NCBI GenBank assembly: GCA_903904835.1
Contig: CAIVEI010000146.1
Coordinates: 62,001 to 126,000 of the forward strand
Length of the DNA: 64,000 nt
Direction of reading: 5' to 3'
DNA from: an uncultured Schlesneria sp.
GTDB taxonomy: Bacteria; Planctomycetota; Planctomycetia; Planctomycetales; Planctomycetaceae
Notes under the pieces: generated by a model
What the model was told of the DNA's origin: nothing
The model's database searches: none
What the model saw: the letters and a program-made list of their open reading frames with translations, nothing else
Part shown: piece by piece, positions 17,718 through 25,614 of the stretch
Numbering within the stretch: position 1 is the stretch's first letter
Layout of the letters: every line of letters starts with the position of its first letter
Program-made: the position numbers and the translations under genes

Positions 17718-18917
17718 TCAGCGATTGCCCGTGAGATGATGTGGATCGTCCGTTGAATACACACCAATCCGGATTGCGTCAGGGTGACTGCCTCGACGGA
17801 ACGCATCAGCGATTGAAGCGAGCGGAATCCATTCTGAAACAAGTCGGGCGAACGGATATTGAGTGTGAGCAGATGACAGAAAATTCACCGCATCCAGCAA
17901 GTGGCGGGGTGCGTAGTTATGAATCCCCCGAATTGTGAGATGTCGCCGCACGACCTGTTCCAGGGCAATCGGCATCGAAGGGCCAGGGAACACCGAACCC
18001 ACCAAGACAAGTGTCCCTCCTGTACGAATCAAGGGCCAGGTGATTTCAAACGCAGCCGGGCTGCCTGAAAGCTCGATAACCACATCGAAGCCAAGGGTCC
18101 CCACTTCTTCGATTGCTACTGCGGCGAGTTCGTCCGGGGGACATGTCCTAGTCGCACCAAATTCCATGGCGAGTTTCCTTCGCGCGGAAACGGGGTCCAC
18201 GGAAACGACTTTTGCAGCACCTTGAACGCGAGACATCGCACAGGCGGTGAGACCCAACATACCCGCACCACTCAAACAAACGGTTCGGCCCGTGAGGTCG
18301 CCAGCGGCTTCCAACGCCGCCGCGATCGTGGCTGTTGCACAGCTTGCCGGACAGGCAACGGCTAAGGGAAGTTCGTCGGGCAATCGAACGATCGAAGTCC
18401 CTGGTACAAGAAGGCAATAATTGGCTAAACCCCCTGATAATTCCCGACCAGGACGAAATGGCTCATGCCCGTATTTGACTCCATTCAAGCATTTCTGAGG
18501 CAAGCCTCGCTGACATAAATCACAGACGCCACAGTTCGCCATAATGGCCCAGGTCACTCGGTCACCACGCTGTAATTCCCGACCGTCCAGATCATAACTG
18601 GCGTTACGACCCCCAATGTCGACGATTTCTCCCACAATCTCATGACCTAGAATCGTCGGAACTGGAACGGTTCGACGTCCGTGAAAGCTATGCAGATCGC
18701 TTCCGCAAATCGTGCAGCCTGATACGCGAACAAGGACCTCGGATTCGCCTGGCTTAGGGATTGATAATTGACGCAACGTCATCTCGCCCGCGACCCCCGC
18801 AAAAACAGCCGCCTCAGCAAGCATGCCCGGTCGGTTCGCGCGGTTTGACGGGTTAAAAGCGGAAACATCGTTCGCCTCAGGCTTGCTGGCGTTTGCAGAG
18901 GAAGTATTCGGCGTCAT
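17718..18917 (-). CDS. Zinc alcohol dehydrogenase, phosphonate-associated (HpnZ-like)
   Basis: A 399-aa medium-chain dehydrogenase. Catalytic zinc residues are seen in CTICGSDLHSFHG and GHEIVGEI, the structural zinc site is CGVCDLCQRGLPQKC, and the NAD(P) loop is CLSGAGMLGLTACAMSRVQGA. The family TIGR03366, found in phosphonate-degradation operons, fits both sequence style and neighbourhood. It could act on the acetaldehyde released by PhnX or on a phosphonate aldehyde or alcohol; the exact substrate is not known. Its ATG at 18917 overlaps the TGA of the DUF5690 transporter gene (ATGA), so the two are translationally coupled. The frame extends further upstream to 18992, but the coupled ATG is preferred. 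Confidence 0.8.
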   Translation of the reverse strand: MTPNTSSANASKPEANDVSAFNPSNRANRPGMLAEAAVFAGVAGEMTLRQLSIPKPGESEVLVRVSGCTICGSDLHSFHGRRTVPVPTILGHEIVGEIVDIGGRNASYDLDGRELQRGDRVTWAIMANCGVCDLCQRGLPQKCLNGVKYGHEPFRPGRELSGGLANYCLLVPGTSIVRLPDELPLAVACPASCATATIAAALEAAGDLTGRTVCLSGAGMLGLTACAMSRVQGAAKVVSVDPVSARRKLAMEFGATRTCPPDELAAVAIEEVGTLGFDVVIELSGSPAAFEITWPLIRTGGTLVLVGSVFPGPSMPIALEQVVRRHLTIRGIHNYAPRHLLDAVNFLSSAHTQYPFARLVSEWIPLASIADAFRRGSHPDAIRIGVYSTDDPHHLTGNR

Positions 18918-20212
18918 GACGTTTTCTTCGCAATCGAGAAATAGATCCAGCTCGTCGCAAGACAAGCGATAGAAATCACAATCGTCAGCCAACTAAGCAA
19001 CGTCAACAGACCAAGCACGCCAGTTGCCGAGGGATGAAAATTGCGCACGACCATAACCACGACGTATCCCAGGTATCCTACCGAATCGGCGACATACATC
19101 AGGAACCCCACGTTCCCTCGTTCGCCGGTCATCGCCAACATCCGTTCCAGTAAAGTCGTATGTACGGCGACATAAGGGAGGTAAAGTCCCAATCCGATCA
19201 GCACCATGAAACGGAAACCGCCGTCGTCCGAAGTCGTACGTGTTAACAATGCCGCCGTCATCAGCACAAATCCCAAGCCACACGTTGCGAGGGATGAAAG
19301 GAATGCCTGGCGGTTGTTGATAATCAGTACGGCCGCGCCATTCACGAACAGCACACAGAACGCAATGATCGTTTCGGAACGGGTGAAGATCGACGACGCA
19401 GTCGCGTTTCCCAGTTCTTTCCAGATTTCCGGCGCGAAATCGGCGCGAATACTTCTCACAATCGTGACCAGAAGGTACATCAGCACGATCGGCATTAATC
19501 CAATTCCATAACGTCGGACGAACGCCAGTCGCTCGGATCTGTCCATCGTGTCTCGTTTGCAACGGGCGGCTACGTCAAAATCGGTTGGCGGAGGAGTTCT
19601 TGCCAGAATCGCCACGCAGACGCCAAAGGGAATCAGAAAGATCAAACCGGCGACGGAGGGCATCCAATCTTCGGTAACGCCCTGGAAAAGTAACCAGGTT
19701 CCCACCGATTTCGTCATGCCGTCAGCCACAATAAAACTCGCACAAAGCCCCGCCGTCAGCAATTCCGTCAGCCTTCTCCCTTCCAGATAACCTTGTACCA
19801 AGCCGAAGACCATTCCTAACGGTAAGCCATTTAGAAACAGGCAGACCGCATTCCAAGGTCGTGGAGCCAGTCCGAATAAGACGAGTGCCCCTTCAGCCGC
19901 GAAAATCAGCCATAGTAAGGTTATTGCTCGTCTGTGCGGCGGCATTTCCGCAATGATTTTAATACCGATAAATTTTGACAGCATATAGCCTGCCACTTGA
20001 GCCATCACCAGTACGATCTTAAAGCTCAGCCCCCAGACATCCGCGTCGTGGAAACGAGCGGCCGTGAACGGCTTGCGAAAGAAGTACATGCAGAAGTAAC
20101 AGCCAAAAGCTGCCGTAACCGTCCAGAATGCAAATGCGAAATCGCTGAATCGATTGGGGTCGTTGACATCGCTGATTCGAGTTTCCATGTCAGATTCGTT
20201 GACTAATTTCAT
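18914..20212 (-). CDS. DUF5690 major-facilitator-like transporter, candidate phosphonate importer
   Basis: A membrane protein of about 432 aa with some 12 hydrophobic spans. The first span carries CYFCMYFFRKPFTAARF, like the xFRxPF segment of organophosphate antiporters of the GlpT/UhpT branch; the overall family is DUF5690. Its 3' end overlaps the start of the alcohol dehydrogenase gene by ATGA, and it is divergent from the HD/oxidase/phnX genes. Uptake of 2-aminoethylphosphonate or a related compound is inferred from this context only. The start is uncertain: ATG 20212 and ATG 20188 both lack a strong ribosome-binding site, and the longer open frame to 20443 would overlap the divergent gene and is rejected. 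Confidence 0.75.
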   Translation of the reverse strand: MKLVNESDMETRISDVNDPNRFSDFAFAFWTVTAAFGCYFCMYFFRKPFTAARFHDADVWGLSFKIVLVMAQVAGYMLSKFIGIKIIAEMPPHRRAITLLWLIFAAEGALVLFGLAPRPWNAVCLFLNGLPLGMVFGLVQGYLEGRRLTELLTAGLCASFIVADGMTKSVGTWLLFQGVTEDWMPSVAGLIFLIPFGVCVAILARTPPPTDFDVAARCKRDTMDRSERLAFVRRYGIGLMPIVLMYLLVTIVRSIRADFAPEIWKELGNATASSIFTRSETIIAFCVLFVNGAAVLIINNRQAFLSSLATCGLGFVLMTAALLTRTTSDDGGFRFMVLIGLGLYLPYVAVHTTLLERMLAMTGERGNVGFLMYVADSVGYLGYVVVMVVRNFHPSATGVLGLLTLLSWLTIVISIACLATSWIYFSIAKKTS

Positions 20213-20258
20213 CAAAAACTCGCGGAAAATTGACTCGACGACCGCACATTTTGTGATC

Positions 20259-20286
20259 TGTAGTGTACTACAATCCCGTCTATACT
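20259..20286. promoter_or_regulatory. Palindromic operator candidate and -10 box in divergent phosphonate promoter
   Basis: The 120-base divergent space holds TGTAGT-GT-ACTACA (20259-20272), a perfect six-base inverted repeat of the type bound by GntR-like repressors. It is followed at 20281-20286 by TATACT, a good -10 box for the plus-strand genes, which places the palindrome on the -35 position. No regulator gene of that family is in the window. Confidence 0.5.
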
Positions 20287-20332
20287 GGATCGACATTGTC
20301 GAATGATGAAGGACCGATGAGGATTTCAAGAA

Positions 20333-20932
20333 ATGCTTGAGACAGACGGCAAACACTGCGCGACAACGATCACGGTGATACAACTGTTTCAAAATCGTGG
20401 CGGTTCTCAATATGGTCGCGAAGCTGTTACGCAGCAGGAACACGCTTTGCAGGCCGCCTTTTTTGCAGAGACCGCAGGCGTCAGTTCCTCGTTAATCGCC
20501 GCAGCGTTGTTACATGACGTCGGCCACTTGCTTCACCATCTCGATGATGACGCGCCTGAACGTGGGATCGATGATCAACACGAAACGCTTGCCGCCCAGT
20601 GGCTGGAGCGTCGATTCGGACCGGAAGTCGTCGAACCTGTCAGGCTACACGTCGCTGCGAAGCGTTTTCTGTGTGCCACGGAACCGGATTATATGGAACA
20701 ACTTAGTCCGGCATCCCTCGTCAGCTTACGATTGCAAGGGGGGACAATGTCTGACGATGAAGTCAAATTATTTCGATCACATCCGTTCCGTGAAGCAGCA
20801 GTCGCACTCCGCCGTTGGGATGATTTCGCGAAACAACCGCAATTGGTGACCCCGCCGATCGAACATTACGCCAGGCACCTTGACCGCGTAGCCAAGTCAG
20901 ATTTCGAGGAGGGTTTCGAGTGCCTGGCTTGA
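20333..20932 (+). CDS. PhnZ-like HD-domain phosphonate oxygenase
   Basis: A 199-aa HD-fold protein matching the phosphonate-operon HD family (TIGR03276) that includes PhnZ, a mixed-valence di-iron oxygenase cleaving 2-amino-1-hydroxyethylphosphonate to glycine and phosphate. The metal ligands are all present: His37, His61-Asp62 (ALLHDVGH), His83, His106 and Asp164; Tyr27, Glu30 and Lys110 sit where PhnZ has substrate and gating residues, with a constant offset of about three from what I remember of PhnZ numbering. GAGGA lies ten bases before the ATG. The FAD oxidase gene starts inside the end of this gene. The usual hydroxylase PhnY is absent from the window. Confidence 0.85.
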
Positions 20933-22050
20933 ACATCGGAGTTGTCGGGGCGGGTATCGTTGGATTGGCTCACGCCTGGTCGGCGGCTGAACGAGGTCAC
21001 CAGGTGACTGTATTCGAACGGTTGCCAATGGCTAGCGGTGCATCGATCCGAAATTTCGGCATGGTCTGGCCGATCGGGCAACCCTCCGGTTCAGCCCATC
21101 GGACCGCACTTCTCGGCCGTGAACGCTGGTTGAAAGTTGCCGGTCAGGCGAAGATCTGGGCGTCTCCTTGTGGTTCCATCCATCTGGCTCACCGTCCCGA
21201 CGAATGGGATGTGTTGCAAGAGTTTCATGCAGTCGCATCAGAGATCGGTGTCGACTGTACATTGCTTGAGCCTGCTCAGGTTTTCGAAAAAACGAGTGCT
21301 GCAAATCCTGCGAGATTGCTTGGCGGACTGTTCAGCCCGACTGAACTTTGCGTGAATCCACCAGCGGCCATTCGCGCTCTTCCCGGTTGGCTGTCGTCGA
21401 AGTTCGACGTGCGATTCGAATTTCAGACGACGATTATTGGAACCGAAGGGAACTCGGTCCAAAGCGCAACCGGTCGCCGCTGGAACTTTGATCGCATCAT
21501 CGTTTGTGGCGGAGCCGATTTTGAAACTCTGTTTCCCGATCTATTTGCCAACGTGGGACTGAAACGATGTAAGTTGCAAATGATGAAAACGGTGCCGCAA
21601 CCGAACGGTTGGCGGATCGGCCCTCATCTGGCCAGCGGATTGACGATCCGTCACTATCGCAATTTCGAGATCTGTCCGAGTCTTCCCGTACTGAAACAGC
21701 GTGTTGCCACCGAATCTCCGGAACTCGATCAATTTGGAATTCATGTCATGGCCTCGCAAAATGACGAGGGTTGTGTGATTCTTGGCGACTCGCATGAATA
21801 CGACGAACAGATCGAGCCGTTCGACAAACAACGGATCGACGAACTAATGCTTCGCGAACTGCGGTCAATTATTCAACTTCCCGACTGGACGATCCAGGAG
21901 CGTTGGCATGGGATCTATGCCAAACATCCGTCGGAACCAATTTTCGCCGCTGAACCGCTGCCAAACGTGTTTGTTCGAACTTGTACAGGAGGCTCTGGCA
22001 TGACAATGTCTTTCGGACTCGCAGAACAAGATTGGGAGCAATGGACATGA
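20920..22050 (+). CDS. FAD-dependent amine oxidase of phosphonate operons (HpnW/PbfD-like)
   Basis: A 376-aa DAO-fold flavoprotein. The dinucleotide site is [21 protein letters not shown] with VFER closing strand 2, then [18 protein letters not shown], the signature of TIGR03364, a family restricted to phosphonate operons. From memory, a member named PbfD oxidises 2-aminoethylphosphonate and its N-methyl form to phosphonoacetaldehyde, the substrate of the next gene. The GTG start at 20920 overlaps the end of the HD gene and has GAGGAGGG just upstream; the stop codon TGA overlaps the ATG of phnX (ATGA). This tight coupling argues that both proteins are made together and act in sequence. Confidence 0.85.
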
Positions 22051-22826
22051 TCGAACTGAAACATCCGATCGAAGCGATCATCTTCGATTGGGCTGGAACC
22101 ACTGTCGATTACGGAAGTCGCGCACCAACCAATGTATTCATCGAGGTCTTTCGAAGAAACGGCGTCGAGATCACGGTCGCCGAAGCACGCGGCCCGATGG
22201 GACGATCAAAGCGGGATCACATTGTGGCAATCGCAACACTTCCGCGAGTGGCCGCTCTTTGGTTCGAACGTTATGGACGCGCTCCGTCCGACATTGATAT
22301 CGACCAGATGTATTACGACTTCCTGCCGCAGCAAAAAGAAGCTCTGCTCACCGGCACGGATATGATTCCAGGTGTTCCGGAAGCAATCGCGAGACTACGT
22401 AGCAGGGGGATAAAAATCGGCTCGTCGACCGGTTACGCTCGAGAACTGATGAACATCGTCGTTCCGATTGCAGCGAGTGCCGGTTATTCTCCAGACGTGG
22501 TGGTTTGCGCTGACGACGTCCCTTCAGGCCGACCCGCTCCCTGGATGAACTTCCTTGCGGCTCAGCAACTCGGTGTCTATCCGATGGATCGAATTCTCGT
22601 CGTCGATGACACACCAATCGGGATCGAAGCGGGACTCAATGCGGGTGCGATTACGATCGGCGTTACCAAGACCGGCAACTCGCTCGGCCTATCGGAATCC
22701 GAGGTCTCACAGTTGTCGCAACCAGATCTTCAAAGCCGACTCAGCAAGATCGAAAGCGATTTTCGTGCAATCGGCGCCCATTTCACGATTCCGTCGGTTG
22801 CCGATCTACCAGACTTATTGCTCTGA
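22047..22826 (+). CDS. phnX: Phosphonoacetaldehyde hydrolase
   Basis: A 259-aa HAD-superfamily enzyme that cleaves the C-P bond of phosphonoacetaldehyde to acetaldehyde and phosphate. The nucleophile aspartate is in [17 protein letters not shown] near residue 12; the Schiff-base lysine is in [11 protein letters not shown] near residue 53; motif II is SSTGYAREL, and the acidic motif is [14 protein letters not shown] with [18 protein letters not shown] before it. Length is typical. ATG 22047 overlaps the preceding stop codon and has GGGAG eight bases upstream; the ATG at 22041 is too close to that site. No phnW transaminase gene is linked, in contrast to the common phnWX pair. Confidence 0.93.
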
Positions 22827-22887
22827 TTACACTGACAAATGTTGACTGCTCGAATTTCCCCGCCGGCATATTGAGGCTTGGTTGAAA

Positions 22888-25614
22888 ATGGCGCTTCACC
22901 GAAACGTTGCACTGCTCGTGGTCTTCGCCGTCAGTCTTGGGTCGCTCGGATTCGGCCAGGACGAACCGGTTATCGAAAGCTCAACAGACCCCGTTGGCCG
23001 GTCGCGCGACGAAGTCATTGTCACTCCTGTGAACCAATTGCTCACTCCTTATGGCAAGCAGGTTGAACTCGCCGGACTTCGGCCGCAAGCTTTAGCGTTG
23101 TCTCCCGATGGTCGATTACTTGTCGCTTCGGGAAAAACGAGTGAATTGATCGTGATTGATCTAGTGGCGAGCGAAGTTCGGCAGAGAGTCCTCTTTCCAG
23201 ACGATTCACAGTTAACACCAGCTTCGGGTGTCGCGATCTTAAATCTTTTGGACCGTCGGGCCCCGGATCGCCGTGGTCAGGTCAGCTTTACCGGATTGAT
23301 CTTCTCGCCGGATGGCAAGCAGATCTATCTCAGCAACGTTAACGGTACGATCAAGGTTTTTGAGGTTAAAGACGACGGGAAGGTTTATGCATCGCATGTG
23401 TTTTTACTGCCGCAGGCGAAGGCGCCTCGTCGACCTGCCGAAATCCCCAGCGGGTTGGCAGTCAAATCGGATGGCTCGCGGCTTTACGTTTGTGGAAATC
23501 TATCCAACCGTCTTCTCGAACTTGATACGGCGACCGGCACGACGCTGCGAAGTTTTGATGTCGGTGCGGCTCCCTATGATGTTGTCCTCGTTGGCAACAA
23601 CGCTTACGTGAGCAATTGGGCGGGACGACGGCCAGACGAACAAAGCGTTCGCGGGCCGGCTGGCCGTGGTACAGAAGTTCGTGTCGACCCGATTCGACAC
23701 ATCGCCAGCGAAGGATCGGTCAGCATCGTCAATCTCGAAGACGAATCAAAGACGGTCGAATTGATCGTTGGATTACATGCTTGCGGACTGGCCTCTTCAC
23801 CCGACGGACAGTATGTCGTTTGCACGAACGCAGGCAGCGATCACTTAAGCGTCATCGACGTTGCTGCACAAAAAGTGGTTGAAACCATCTGGGCGAAAAC
23901 CAAGCCCTCCGATTTGTTCGGTGCTTCCCCCAATGCGATCGCCTTTCATCCGTCCGGAAAGAAGCTGTTTGTTGCCAACGGAACGCAGAACTCCATTGCG
24001 GTATTTGATTTCGACCCCAAAGAAAAGGGCGATTCTCGGCTCACCGGGTTGGTCCCTGCTGGCTGGTTTCCCGGTGCCGTTGTGTTCGATCCACATCGAA
24101 ATGCCATCTATTGTGCCAACATTAAAGGGTTGCCTCAGGCACCGAAAAAGAAGCCGAACGGAGACGAGGGTTACAACTCACATCACTACCACGGTTCGGT
24201 GTCGCTGATGCCCATTCCCAACGACGACCAGCTTCCCCTGCTTTCGGAACGAGCAGCGAAAAACATACGACGAGGGGCAATCGCTCAAGCGGCACTGCCG
24301 GCACGCACTGGCCAACCTGCACGAGCGATCCCTCAGCGGATCGGCGAGCCGAGTTTGATCAAACACGTCGTCTACGTCATTAAAGAAAACCGTACTTACG
24401 ACCAGGTGTTTGGAGCTCTGAAACAAGGTAACGGTCGCCCGGACCTGTGTATCTTTGGTGATGCGGTAACGCCCAATCAACATAAAATGGTGCAGGAATT
24501 CGTCTTGCTCGACAACACCTATTGCTCAGGTATCTTGAGTGCCGACGGACATCAATGGAGTACGACGGCATTTGCAACCGATTACCTCGAGAAAAGCTTT
24601 GCCGGCTTTCCTCGCAGTTATCCCGACGGAATGGAAGTGAACGACGAGTCTGACGCGATCGCTTATTCGCCCGCAGGCTTTCTCTGGGACAACGCGATCG
24701 CTCACAACGTGTCGATCCGAAACTACGGTGAGTTCATGGCGCCCGTGGTCCGTTGGAGAGATCCGCAGAAAAAAGGGAACCCGAACTTTCTAGCCTGTTA
24801 TCGCACCTGGAAAGATGACTCGAAGGAAGTGATCTTCGAGAGTACCCCCACGATCGAATCGATCAAATCGTTTTCTCCCACGGATTACGTTGGCTGGGCA
24901 ATGGCGGTACCGGACCAGTTTCGAGCCGACTTTATTCTGAAAGAACTCAAACAATTCGAAGTGGACGGAAAATTTCCCAGCCTCGTCATCATTTGTCTCC
25001 CGAACGACCATACAAGTGGTACCAGTCCCGGCTCGCCGACCCCCGCGTCGCAGATGGCAGACAACGATCTGGCGTTTGGCAGAATCGTGCAGGGGCTCAG
25101 TCAATCACCATTCTGGAAAGAGATGGCCATTTTCGGGATCGAGGACGACCCCCAAGACGGTTGGGATCACGTTAGTGGCTACCGTACAACAGCTTATTGC
25201 ATAAGCCCTTATGCTAAACGAGGCCAGGTCGTCAGCACCCAGTACAACACGACAAGCATCCTTCGCACGGTCGAACAGATTCTTGGTTTGCCCCCGATGA
25301 ATCAATTCGATGCCAGTGCAACTCCGATGTTCGACTGCATGACGGACACTCCCAACTTTACGCTATTTGAATCGGTGCCGAATAAGATCCCTCTCGATCA
25401 GATGAATCCCGATCCCAACGCGATCCGTGATCCGATCCTGCGCGACGACGCGATTCGTTCGGCGAGTCTCAATTTCCGCGAAGTCGACAAAGCTCCAGAA
25501 GACGTCCTGAACCGAATTTTATGGAGATCGCAAAAAGGGAGCGAAATTCCCTATCCGGAATGGGCGATTTCCTTGGCCGAAGATCACGACGATGATGAGC
25601 ACGAGGAAGATTGA
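22888..25614 (+). CDS. Secreted YncE-type propeller fused to phosphoesterase domain
   Basis: A protein of about 908 aa: signal peptide (residues 1-23, LLVVFAVSLGSLGFGQ), a seven-bladed YVTN propeller (about 40-440) and a C-terminal phosphoesterase of the PF04185/alkaline-phosphatase superfold starting at HVVYVIKENRTYDQVFG (about 492), with the metal/nucleophile region in DNTYCSGILSADGHQW, CLPNDHTSG, and IEDDPQDGWDHV. The tail is strongly acidic (EDHDDDEHEED). It starts 61 bases after phnX; ATG 22888 or the in-frame TTG 22882 could be the start. It may feed phosphate or phosphonate head groups to the operon, but a paralogue at 51284 has no such neighbours, so the link is uncertain. Confidence 0.82.
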   Translation: MALHRNVALLVVFAVSLGSLGFGQDEPVIESSTDPVGRSRDEVIVTPVNQLLTPYGKQVELAGLRPQALALSPDGRLLVASGKTSELIVIDLVASEVRQRVLFPDDSQLTPASGVAILNLLDRRAPDRRGQVSFTGLIFSPDGKQIYLSNVNGTIKVFEVKDDGKVYASHVFLLPQAKAPRRPAEIPSGLAVKSDGSRLYVCGNLSNRLLELDTATGTTLRSFDVGAAPYDVVLVGNNAYVSNWAGRRPDEQSVRGPAGRGTEVRVDPIRHIASEGSVSIVNLEDESKTVELIVGLHACGLASSPDGQYVVCTNAGSDHLSVIDVAAQKVVETIWAKTKPSDLFGASPNAIAFHPSGKKLFVANGTQNSIAVFDFDPKEKGDSRLTGLVPAGWFPGAVVFDPHRNAIYCANIKGLPQAPKKKPNGDEGYNSHHYHGSVSLMPIPNDDQLPLLSERAAKNIRRGAIAQAALPARTGQPARAIPQRIGEPSLIKHVVYVIKENRTYDQVFGALKQGNGRPDLCIFGDAVTPNQHKMVQEFVLLDNTYCSGILSADGHQWSTTAFATDYLEKSFAGFPRSYPDGMEVNDESDAIAYSPAGFLWDNAIAHNVSIRNYGEFMAPVVRWRDPQKKGNPNFLACYRTWKDDSKEVIFESTPTIESIKSFSPTDYVGWAMAVPDQFRADFILKELKQFEVDGKFPSLVIICLPNDHTSGTSPGSPTPASQMADNDLAFGRIVQGLSQSPFWKEMAIFGIEDDPQDGWDHVSGYRTTAYCISPYAKRGQVVSTQYNTTSILRTVEQILGLPPMNQFDASATPMFDCMTDTPNFTLFESVPNKIPLDQMNPDPNAIRDPILRDDAIRSASLNFREVDKAPEDVLNRILWRSQKGSEIPYPEWAISLAEDHDDDEHEED

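Follow-up and report, generated by a model that had tools for sequence, protein, structure and literature searches.

A compact phosphonate-catabolism locus in an uncultured Schlesneria, with DUF5690 as a candidate phosphonate permease

The window analysed here is a 64,000-nucleotide stretch of contig CAIVEI010000146.1 (assembly GCA_903904835.1) from an uncultured Schlesneria sp. of the Planctomycetota. Positions 17718-22826 hold a phosphonate locus of ~5.1 kb, comprising two minus-strand and three plus-strand genes that are divergent and overlapping. These encode a protein of the DUF5690 family, the putative dehydrogenase HpnZ, a PhnZ-like HD oxygenase (HD), the amine oxidase PbfD and the hydrolase PhnX. 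We place the probability that DUF5690 is the phosphonate permease of a compact locus serving several phosphonates, and not using carbon-phosphorus (C-P) lyase, at about 0.75. The main point of interest is DUF5690, for which there are good grounds to propose an undescribed family of phosphonate permeases, whose transport and its direction we infer from the evidence below.

Gene content of the locus and its genome

The initial annotation had placed five phosphonate-catabolism genes here, joined by ATGA overlaps or by a GTG start inside the preceding gene. Every family scored above its curated cut-off (Table 1), and the junctions were borne out by reading the sequence: the hpnZ ATG and the DUF5690 stop overlap as ATGA (18914-18917), the pbfD GTG start falls within the HD gene, and the phnX ATG falls within pbfD, with an alternative ATG at 22047 that would give an ATGA overlap. 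DUF5690 starts at the ATG at 20212; a downstream ATG at 20189 is also possible. The enzymes of the locus are known; their arrangement is new.

Table 1. Features of the phosphonate locus, in window coordinates
Feature	Coordinates	Strand	Basis of assignment
hpnZ, zinc-type alcohol dehydrogenase	17718..18917	-	TIGR03366, 413.1 bits vs cut-off 328.1
DUF5690 (PF18943)	18914..20212	-	Pfam, 443.5 bits vs gathering 25; profile positions 1-380 of 382
Divergent intergenic region, 120 nt	20213..20332	.	Read from sequence
Phn-HD, PhnZ-like mixed-valent di-iron oxygenase	20333..20932	+	TIGR03276, 221.5 bits vs 214.6
pbfD, FAD amine oxidase	20920..22050	+	TIGR03364, 439.6 bits vs 285.1
phnX, phosphonoacetaldehyde hydrolase	22041..22826	+	TIGR01422, 329.7 bits vs 220

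The source genome is 8.18 Mb in size and 99.97% complete. DUF5690 (E≤1e-10), PbfD (E≤1e-30), HD (E≤1e-25) and PhnX (E≤1e-40) each gave one match genome-wide, all in this locus; additional HpnZ copies lay outside this search. The locus had been described as lacking phnW and phnY. For phnW this holds throughout the genome, and likewise for pbfA, the best matches reaching 130.1 vs 400.8 bits (PhnW) and 251.2 vs 525 bits (PbfA). The best PhnA match was 156.5 vs 407.55 bits, phosphonoacetaldehyde dehydrogenase being outside the search. Because such weaker paralogues appear, absence here means absence at the curated level. For phnY the description holds in part: nothing exceeded the cut-off of the methylphosphonate-hydroxylase model NF052437 (96.7 vs 500 bits), the only PhnY* model used, the PhnY* type acting on 2-aminoethylphosphonate (AEP) and TmpA falling outside its scope. 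PhnJ and phosphoenolpyruvate mutase had no match at E≤0.001. Of phnCDE, which the initial annotation had also wished to see traced, PhnD had no match at E≤0.001; PhnC and PhnE, like AepX and AepS, were outside the search.

DUF5690: genomic company and predicted structure

Across 392 planctomycete genomes, DUF5690 was present in 39 and PhnX in 37, with both in 27 (Fisher p 2.6e-24; relatedness is uncorrected in all Fisher tests). DUF5690, PbfD, HD and PhnX co-occurred pairwise at p 1.4e-17 to 6.7e-26; the co-occurrence of DUF5690 with phosphonate genes, named beforehand as the test of its role, was thus found. To this set we added the best 80 of 595 relatives (the named loci, at least two of which overlap the planctomycete set), which span Planctomycetota, Verrucomicrobiota, Acidobacteriota and Bacteroidota. 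PbfD, HD, PhnX (from 100 bits in named loci), PhnA, PhnW and PbfA were counted as C-P genes; the tallies use gene calls from a simple open reading frame (ORF) script and self-chosen tblastn bit-score thresholds, near-identical loci were kept, and several loci end at a contig edge. A C-P enzyme was encoded at 60 of the 80 named loci, HpnZ only at 14, and neither at six (two of these with an iron-type alcohol dehydrogenase, Fe-ADH); a C-P gene or HpnZ therefore lies near DUF5690 in 74/80. The planctomycete set contains 42 DUF5690 copies, two pieces in genome G092 being counted as one; 38 were read as loci and four, from genus g3, were placed by coordinates. Twenty-five of the 42 lie near a C-P enzyme (21/38 loci read plus the four from g3) and six have HpnZ only, with PhnX elsewhere in the genome in 6/6 such cases (two from one genus).

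All four plasmid-borne copies were accompanied by PhnX, three also by PhnW and one by PbfD. The order is DUF5690-PbfD-PhnX on a Novosphingobium plasmid and DUF5690-phnX-phnW on plasmids of Bacteroides finegoldii and Parabacteroides distasonis; in Phocaeicola massiliensis PhnX and PhnW were detected by tblastn. The gut Bacteroidales plasmid records with this arrangement (L214, L215 and L216, the last by tblastn only) mark a possible route of AEP use in the gut. The control genome of Caulobacter vibrioides also gave a DUF5690 match above cut-off.

Overall, DUF5690 was partnered by PbfD-PhnX, PhnW-PhnX, PhnA with the TIGR03250 phosphonoacetaldehyde dehydrogenase, PhnY*-PhnZ1, PbfA-PhnW, or HD alone. 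DUF5690 remains constant while the enzymes change, which is the pattern that a shared importer predicts. In two settings its slot is taken by a GlpT-like protein of the major facilitator superfamily (MFS). One g3 locus (L105) has the order HpnZ-PhnW-PhnX-HD-MFS-PbfD, with a GlpT/PgtP-like MFS and no DUF5690, and in the nine g3 genomes with an operon of this type (one read), PbfD and HD are consistently 1390-1405 bases apart. Genome G377 has no DUF5690 match, and a GlpT-like MFS adjoins its HD gene.

For structural comparison, two DUF5690 profiles were used: A1, from 36 of the 38 planctomycete loci (near-copies L075 and L094 omitted), and A2, also the input for structure prediction, from the window and 76 of the 80 named loci (L169, with unknown residues, and L108, L111 and L150 omitted). 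Their union comprises 112 distinct proteins, on which residue counts are based. The AlphaFold2 (AF2) model built from these 77 sequences had a predicted local distance difference test score (pLDDT) of 91.2 and a predicted template modelling score (pTM) of 0.90. The top Foldseek match was the organophosphate exchanger G6PT/SLC37A4 (E 5.2e-8, TM 0.64, 18% identity), which also accounted for 13 of the first 15 rows (query TM of the 15, 0.57-0.66; identity in the G6PT rows, 15-18%). The best 50 of 318 rows (E≤0.001) are, we take it, all major-facilitator proteins. A five-member profile of the organophosphate:phosphate antiporter (OPA) family, comprising GlpT, UhpT, UhpC and two GlpT-like planctomycete MFS proteins, was then aligned to DUF5690 using hhalign. 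Probabilities were 93.2 (A2), 96.7 (A1) and 96.7 (the union of 112), with E 2.9e-7 to 4e-10. Six other MFS sets reached at most 2.7 (a mixed five-member set, 0.2), these control sets, each of two to five E. coli proteins and in part drawn from more than one family, not being strictly comparable with the OPA set; 20 column-shuffled OPA profiles reached at most 0.8.

In the five-member alignment, DUF5690 Y39, Y43, R46, K47, K80, R253, D258 and E280 fall at GlpT Y38, Y42, R45, K46, K80, R269, D274 and E299, all identical. Among the 112 proteins, R46 and R253 are conserved in 112 each, K80 and Y39 in 111 each, Y43 in 110, K47 in 109, E280 in 108 and D258 in 92. Substrate contact in GlpT falls mainly to R45, assisted by K46 and R269 in the outward-facing state and by K80 in the inward-facing one, and K46 is salt-bridged to D274 (PMC4598623). 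DUF5690 would accordingly be OPA-like in predicted fold and in residues, and may import phosphonates across the inner membrane by GlpT-like alternating access, with R46 (helix 1) and R253 (helix 7) holding the phosphono group. Whether DUF5690 is a transporter had been left open in the initial annotation; context, predicted fold and binding-residue conservation now support it well as a predicted transporter.

Several observations weigh against this interpretation. The 13 G6PT rows trace to a single protein, and the best 50 of the 318 Foldseek rows do not include GlpT. OPA profiles of two or three members gave probabilities of only 0.5-30, that of GlpT and UhpT being no better (0.5-1.7) than the non-OPA sets, and single OPA proteins gave 1.5-34 with the union profile. 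Single transporters aligned one at a time all scored weakly, CynX ranked above UhpC, and GlpT alone aligned out of register. Given these weak smaller profiles and the register of GlpT, the residue mapping rests on the five-member profile. Profiles A1 and A2 retrieved no PDB chain at E≤10 and DUF5690 matched no NCBIfam model, OPA models included, at E≤0.01; as sequence models thus miss it, we do not file DUF5690 as an OPA member. GlpT H165, Y266 and Y270 are not kept, the H165 position being F160 in DUF5690 (Phe in 101/112). The genomic association is also incomplete. Within the stretch read, phosphonate genes, HpnZ and Fe-ADH are all missing around 11 of the 42 planctomycete copies and at four of the 80 named loci. 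Nine DUF5690 genomes lack PbfD, HD and PhnX altogether, one of which (G057) has PhnW and PbfA beside DUF5690. In g3, DUF5690 stands beside PhnY*-PhnZ1 in five genomes (L085 of G299 read, four by coordinates) and is missing in a sixth, G181, where the pair is present (L186, HD-PhnY*). Finally, the named loci were picked by similarity to a planctomycete-built profile, and at least two duplicate planctomycete loci (L172 = L066, L141 = L088).

A FastTree phylogeny of 118 proteins (midpoint root, long branches) placed the 11 phosphonate-less planctomycete copies in one deep 22-row part, together with 11 phosphonate-linked rows. The substrate of the phosphonate-less copies (L069, L070, L071, L072, L074, L076, L078, L079, L080, L082 and L084) may differ. 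A PhoD-like phosphodiesterase was seen in DUF5690 loci L087, L091, L092, L094, L117, L155 and L180, corresponding to 4/37 planctomycete loci (all of one genus), 3/80 named and 0/20 control loci. In three Bacteroidota loci (L167, L183 and L184) a SusC-like TonB receptor lies directly downstream of DUF5690, with a SusD-like protein in L167 and L184 (by Pfam scan, L167 only), which suggests linked uptake at the outer membrane. Nothing on DUF5690 or PF18943 was found among openly licensed PubMed Central (PMC) papers, preprints excluded.

Candidate substrates and rival readings

PbfC and PbfD oxidise N-methyl-AEP to phosphonoacetaldehyde, and PbfD2 also accepts AEP (Zangelmi et al. 2023, PMC10590968). 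In that study the usual partner of pbfD outside the PbfD1 subgroup is phnX alone, with no phnW, and Planctomycetota are named among the holders of pbfD. The initial annotation's view that the FAD oxidase stands in for PhnW is supported, PbfD appearing to substitute for PhnW here as in the PbfD-phnX clusters without phnW already in print (PMC10590968). Activity is published for examples of both PbfD1 and PbfD2 (PMC10590968). By analogy, the window's PbfD would act inside the cell on N-methyl-AEP, and probably AEP, to give phosphonoacetaldehyde. PhnX aligned to a solved PhnX at E 1.4e-70, with D16, M53, K57 and H60 at Bacillus cereus D12, M49, K53 and H56 (counted by hand); D16 and K57 would correspond to D12 and K53, which we take to be the catalytic Asp and Lys. 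As published for its relatives, PhnX would split phosphonoacetaldehyde into acetaldehyde and phosphate.

HpnZ is assigned by TIGR03366, a hypoth_equivalog model; we know of no demonstrated HpnZ activity, and found nothing on TIGR03366 in the same literature set. Taking PhnX, a PhnX-like gene (≥55 bits) or PhnA as a consumer of phosphonoacetaldehyde, 45 named loci contain one. Thirty-three of these also have PhnW, PbfD or PbfA, 24 of the 33 with HpnZ or Fe-ADH as well. The other 12, lacking an amine-side enzyme, carry HpnZ or Fe-ADH in every case, a hint that HpnZ oxidises 2-hydroxyethylphosphonate; under independence p is about 0.02, which is suggestive only since relatedness is ignored. Planctomycete consumer loci divide into 11 amine-side, four with the alcohol side only, all of one genus whose genomes encode PbfD at another site, and two, both at contig ends, with neither. 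At 20 PbfD/HD/PhnX loci chosen because DUF5690 does not adjoin, HpnZ was found in none and Fe-ADH in one; L105 has HpnZ without DUF5690. The role we prefer on this locus content, with modest support, is that HpnZ probably oxidises 2-hydroxyethylphosphonate to the same phosphonoacetaldehyde. The reverse reaction is that of the biosynthetic PhpC, and phpC is mentioned inside some AEP-catabolic operons (PMC9381506). HpnZ as the NAD-dependent racemase PbfF, acting on 2-amino-1-hydroxyethylphosphonate (HAEP), was rejected, PbfF belonging to a different family, pfam02826 (PMC12366243).

The best PDB match of HD was TmpB (E 3.5e-34); its E value against PhnZ was 3.4e-28. HD Y27, E30, H37, H61, D62, H83, H106 and D163 align with PhnZ Y24, E27, H34, H58, D59, H80, H104 and D161. 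All six PhnZ metal ligands and the YxxE loop are thereby kept, H34, H80, H104 and D161 being positions that we take to bind metal. In PhnZ and TmpB the glutamate of this loop comes close enough to hydrogen-bond with the amino group of the substrate (PMC8177086). Since E30 aligns with PhnZ E27, the substrate is likely to be an alpha-hydroxyphosphonate that carries an amino group, such as R-HAEP, and on a separate branch HD would turn imported R-HAEP into glycine and phosphate. The initial annotation had seen a puzzle in a PhnZ without PhnY. By NF052437, no PhnY* reaches the cut-off in this genome (96.7 vs 500 bits), and published work goes most of the way to resolving the puzzle: homologues of phnZ are reported from 15/1186 phnWX and 24/75 phnWAY clusters, never alongside pbfA, and are tied to R-HAEP breakdown (PMC8154272). 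The absence of PhnW and that of PhnY* are therefore not new, PMC10590968 and PMC8154272 already accounting for them. An HD gene was present in 37/80 named loci, 14 of which (several on short contigs) lack PbfD, PhnX, PhnA and PhnW. Among planctomycete genomes, 37 carry HD (E≤1e-25; 23 of them above the TIGR03276 cut-off), and in 31 of the 37 no PhnY* exceeds the NF052437 cut-off.

The context of DUF5690 could also be read as that of an exporter of phosphate (or waste), or an antiporter, which relieves the phosphate freed by PhnX and HD and is not an importer. The nearest fold and the binding residues are those of organophosphate:phosphate antiporters, and phosphonate/phosphate exchange would unite both roles. 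Stappia growing on AEP is reported to export phosphate (PMC8316502), and 13 OPA-like MFS elsewhere in the source genome (TIGR00881 matches, none above cut-off, best 134.2 bits) could import. We nevertheless consider this unlikely: PhnD was not found in the genome; a GlpT-like MFS (≥120 bits) occurs in none of the 80 named loci, where ABC phosphonate importers lay outside the search; the transporter beside these enzymes in g3 and G377 is GlpT/AepP-like; and at least two DUF5690 loci have a separate phosphate transporter gene (L110, a Na/Pi cotransporter; L215). For HpnZ, the rival role is the handling of acetaldehyde from PhnX, or of another product, in place of an input of 2-hydroxyethylphosphonate; the position of a zinc alcohol dehydrogenase beside an acetaldehyde-producing enzyme would suit it. 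However, HpnZ is found in five of the six named PhnA loci, in which the end product is acetate, and this argues against an acetaldehyde role, as do the 12 consumer loci described above. We regard an acetaldehyde role as doubtful though a serious contender, and retain 2-hydroxyethylphosphonate as the preferred substrate of HpnZ.

HD, in turn, might act on hydroxymethylphosphonate or R-1-hydroxy-2-trimethylaminoethylphosphonate, or might require an unlinked Fe/2-oxoglutarate hydroxylase. PhnZ1 and TmpB are its relatives, TmpB the closest of known structure; GmPhnZ cleaves hydroxymethylphosphonate as well as R-HAEP (PMC10574752); and a hydroxylase could be supplied by the PhyH-family protein matched weakly (96.7 bits) at another site in the genome. 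Conversely, HD scores under both the TmpB (179.9 vs 300) and the PhnZ1 (167.3 vs 300) equivalog cut-offs, and E30 would sit near a substrate amino group, although TmpB shares this loop. A tblastn search with the g3 PhnY* (E≤1e-8) retrieved no PhnY*-like gene from any of the 37 named loci with HD, which also lack a PbfA gene; PhyH domains were likewise absent from the 10 ORFs scanned across nine HD loci. We therefore consider these substrates, or an unlinked hydroxylase, unlikely, and R-HAEP the likely substrate of HD.

The divergent gap presumably holds promoters for both gene directions, which may be co-regulated. Within it are two perfect inverted repeats, TGTAGTGTACTACA (20259-20272) and TCGACATTGTCGA (20290-20302), a possible operator. 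Among 29 divergent relatives scanned, no shared repeat of the TGTA..TACA type was seen, nor were the two window repeats. Downstream, an exported-looking PF04185 phosphoesterase with a beta-propeller (22882-25614, plus strand) begins 56 nt past phnX and might release phosphonates from esters. Its kin lie near five of the 80 named (one query having been taken from one of those five), 0/37 planctomycete DUF5690 and 0/20 control loci; because they are so rarely near DUF5690, it was dropped as a sixth gene of the locus.

Significance and relation to known systems

The entry of phosphonates into cells is known for few systems (PMC10574752). We tentatively propose, at somewhat less than even odds for the combined claim, that DUF5690 is a broad new phosphonate permease family, a far-diverged OPA branch serving PhnX, PhnA, PbfD and PhnZ-type pathways in Planctomycetota, Verrucomicrobiota, Acidobacteriota, Bacteroidota including gut Bacteroidales, and at least one alphaproteobacterium, and that its frequent partner HpnZ is a 2-hydroxyethylphosphonate dehydrogenase on a route free of C-P lyase. 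If so, a single-gene permease family tied to several C-P pathways across phyla would make uptake capacity predictable from genome sequence, and direct tests of phosphonate use in planctomycetes and gut Bacteroidales would become feasible. 2-Hydroxyethylphosphonate occurs as esters in marine organic matter and is broken down by C-P lyase to ethylene (PMC5649143); oxidation by HpnZ would give this marine phosphonate a second fate that yields no ethylene.

With GlpT, UhpT and SLC37 proteins of the OPA family, DUF5690 shares a predicted fold nearest to SLC37A4 and eight residues identical to those of GlpT after profile alignment; it differs in its 15-18% identity in the G6PT rows and in forming a separate Pfam family. 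Transport of AEP has been proven for AepP, a GlpT-related MFS permease 27.75% identical to GlpT (Murphy et al. 2021, PMC8316502). DUF5690 resembles AepP as a predicted major-facilitator permease related to organophosphate antiporters and encoded beside AEP genes, and is unlike it in being missed by NCBIfam OPA models and by HMMER against the PDB, and in lacking GlpT H165, Y266 and Y270.

Among pathways, the PbfD2-PhnX route (PMC10590968) likewise combines a TIGR03364 oxidase with PhnX, lacks PhnW and has holders in Planctomycetota; the window adds a PhnZ-like HD, HpnZ and DUF5690, none of them discussed for PbfD clusters in the covered parts of that paper's main text. The PhnZ homologues of phnWX and phnWAY clusters (PMC8154272) similarly occur without PhnY* and PbfA, whereas in the window PbfD stands in for PhnW. 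The PhnY*-PhnZ pathways, including PhnY*-PhnZ1 of Gimesia maris, differ in that the source genome has no PhnY* above the NF052437 cut-off; as in these pathways, the window's HD retains the metal-binding residues along with the YxxE loop, and it is beside a PhnY*-PhnZ1-like pair that DUF5690 stands in five g3 genomes.

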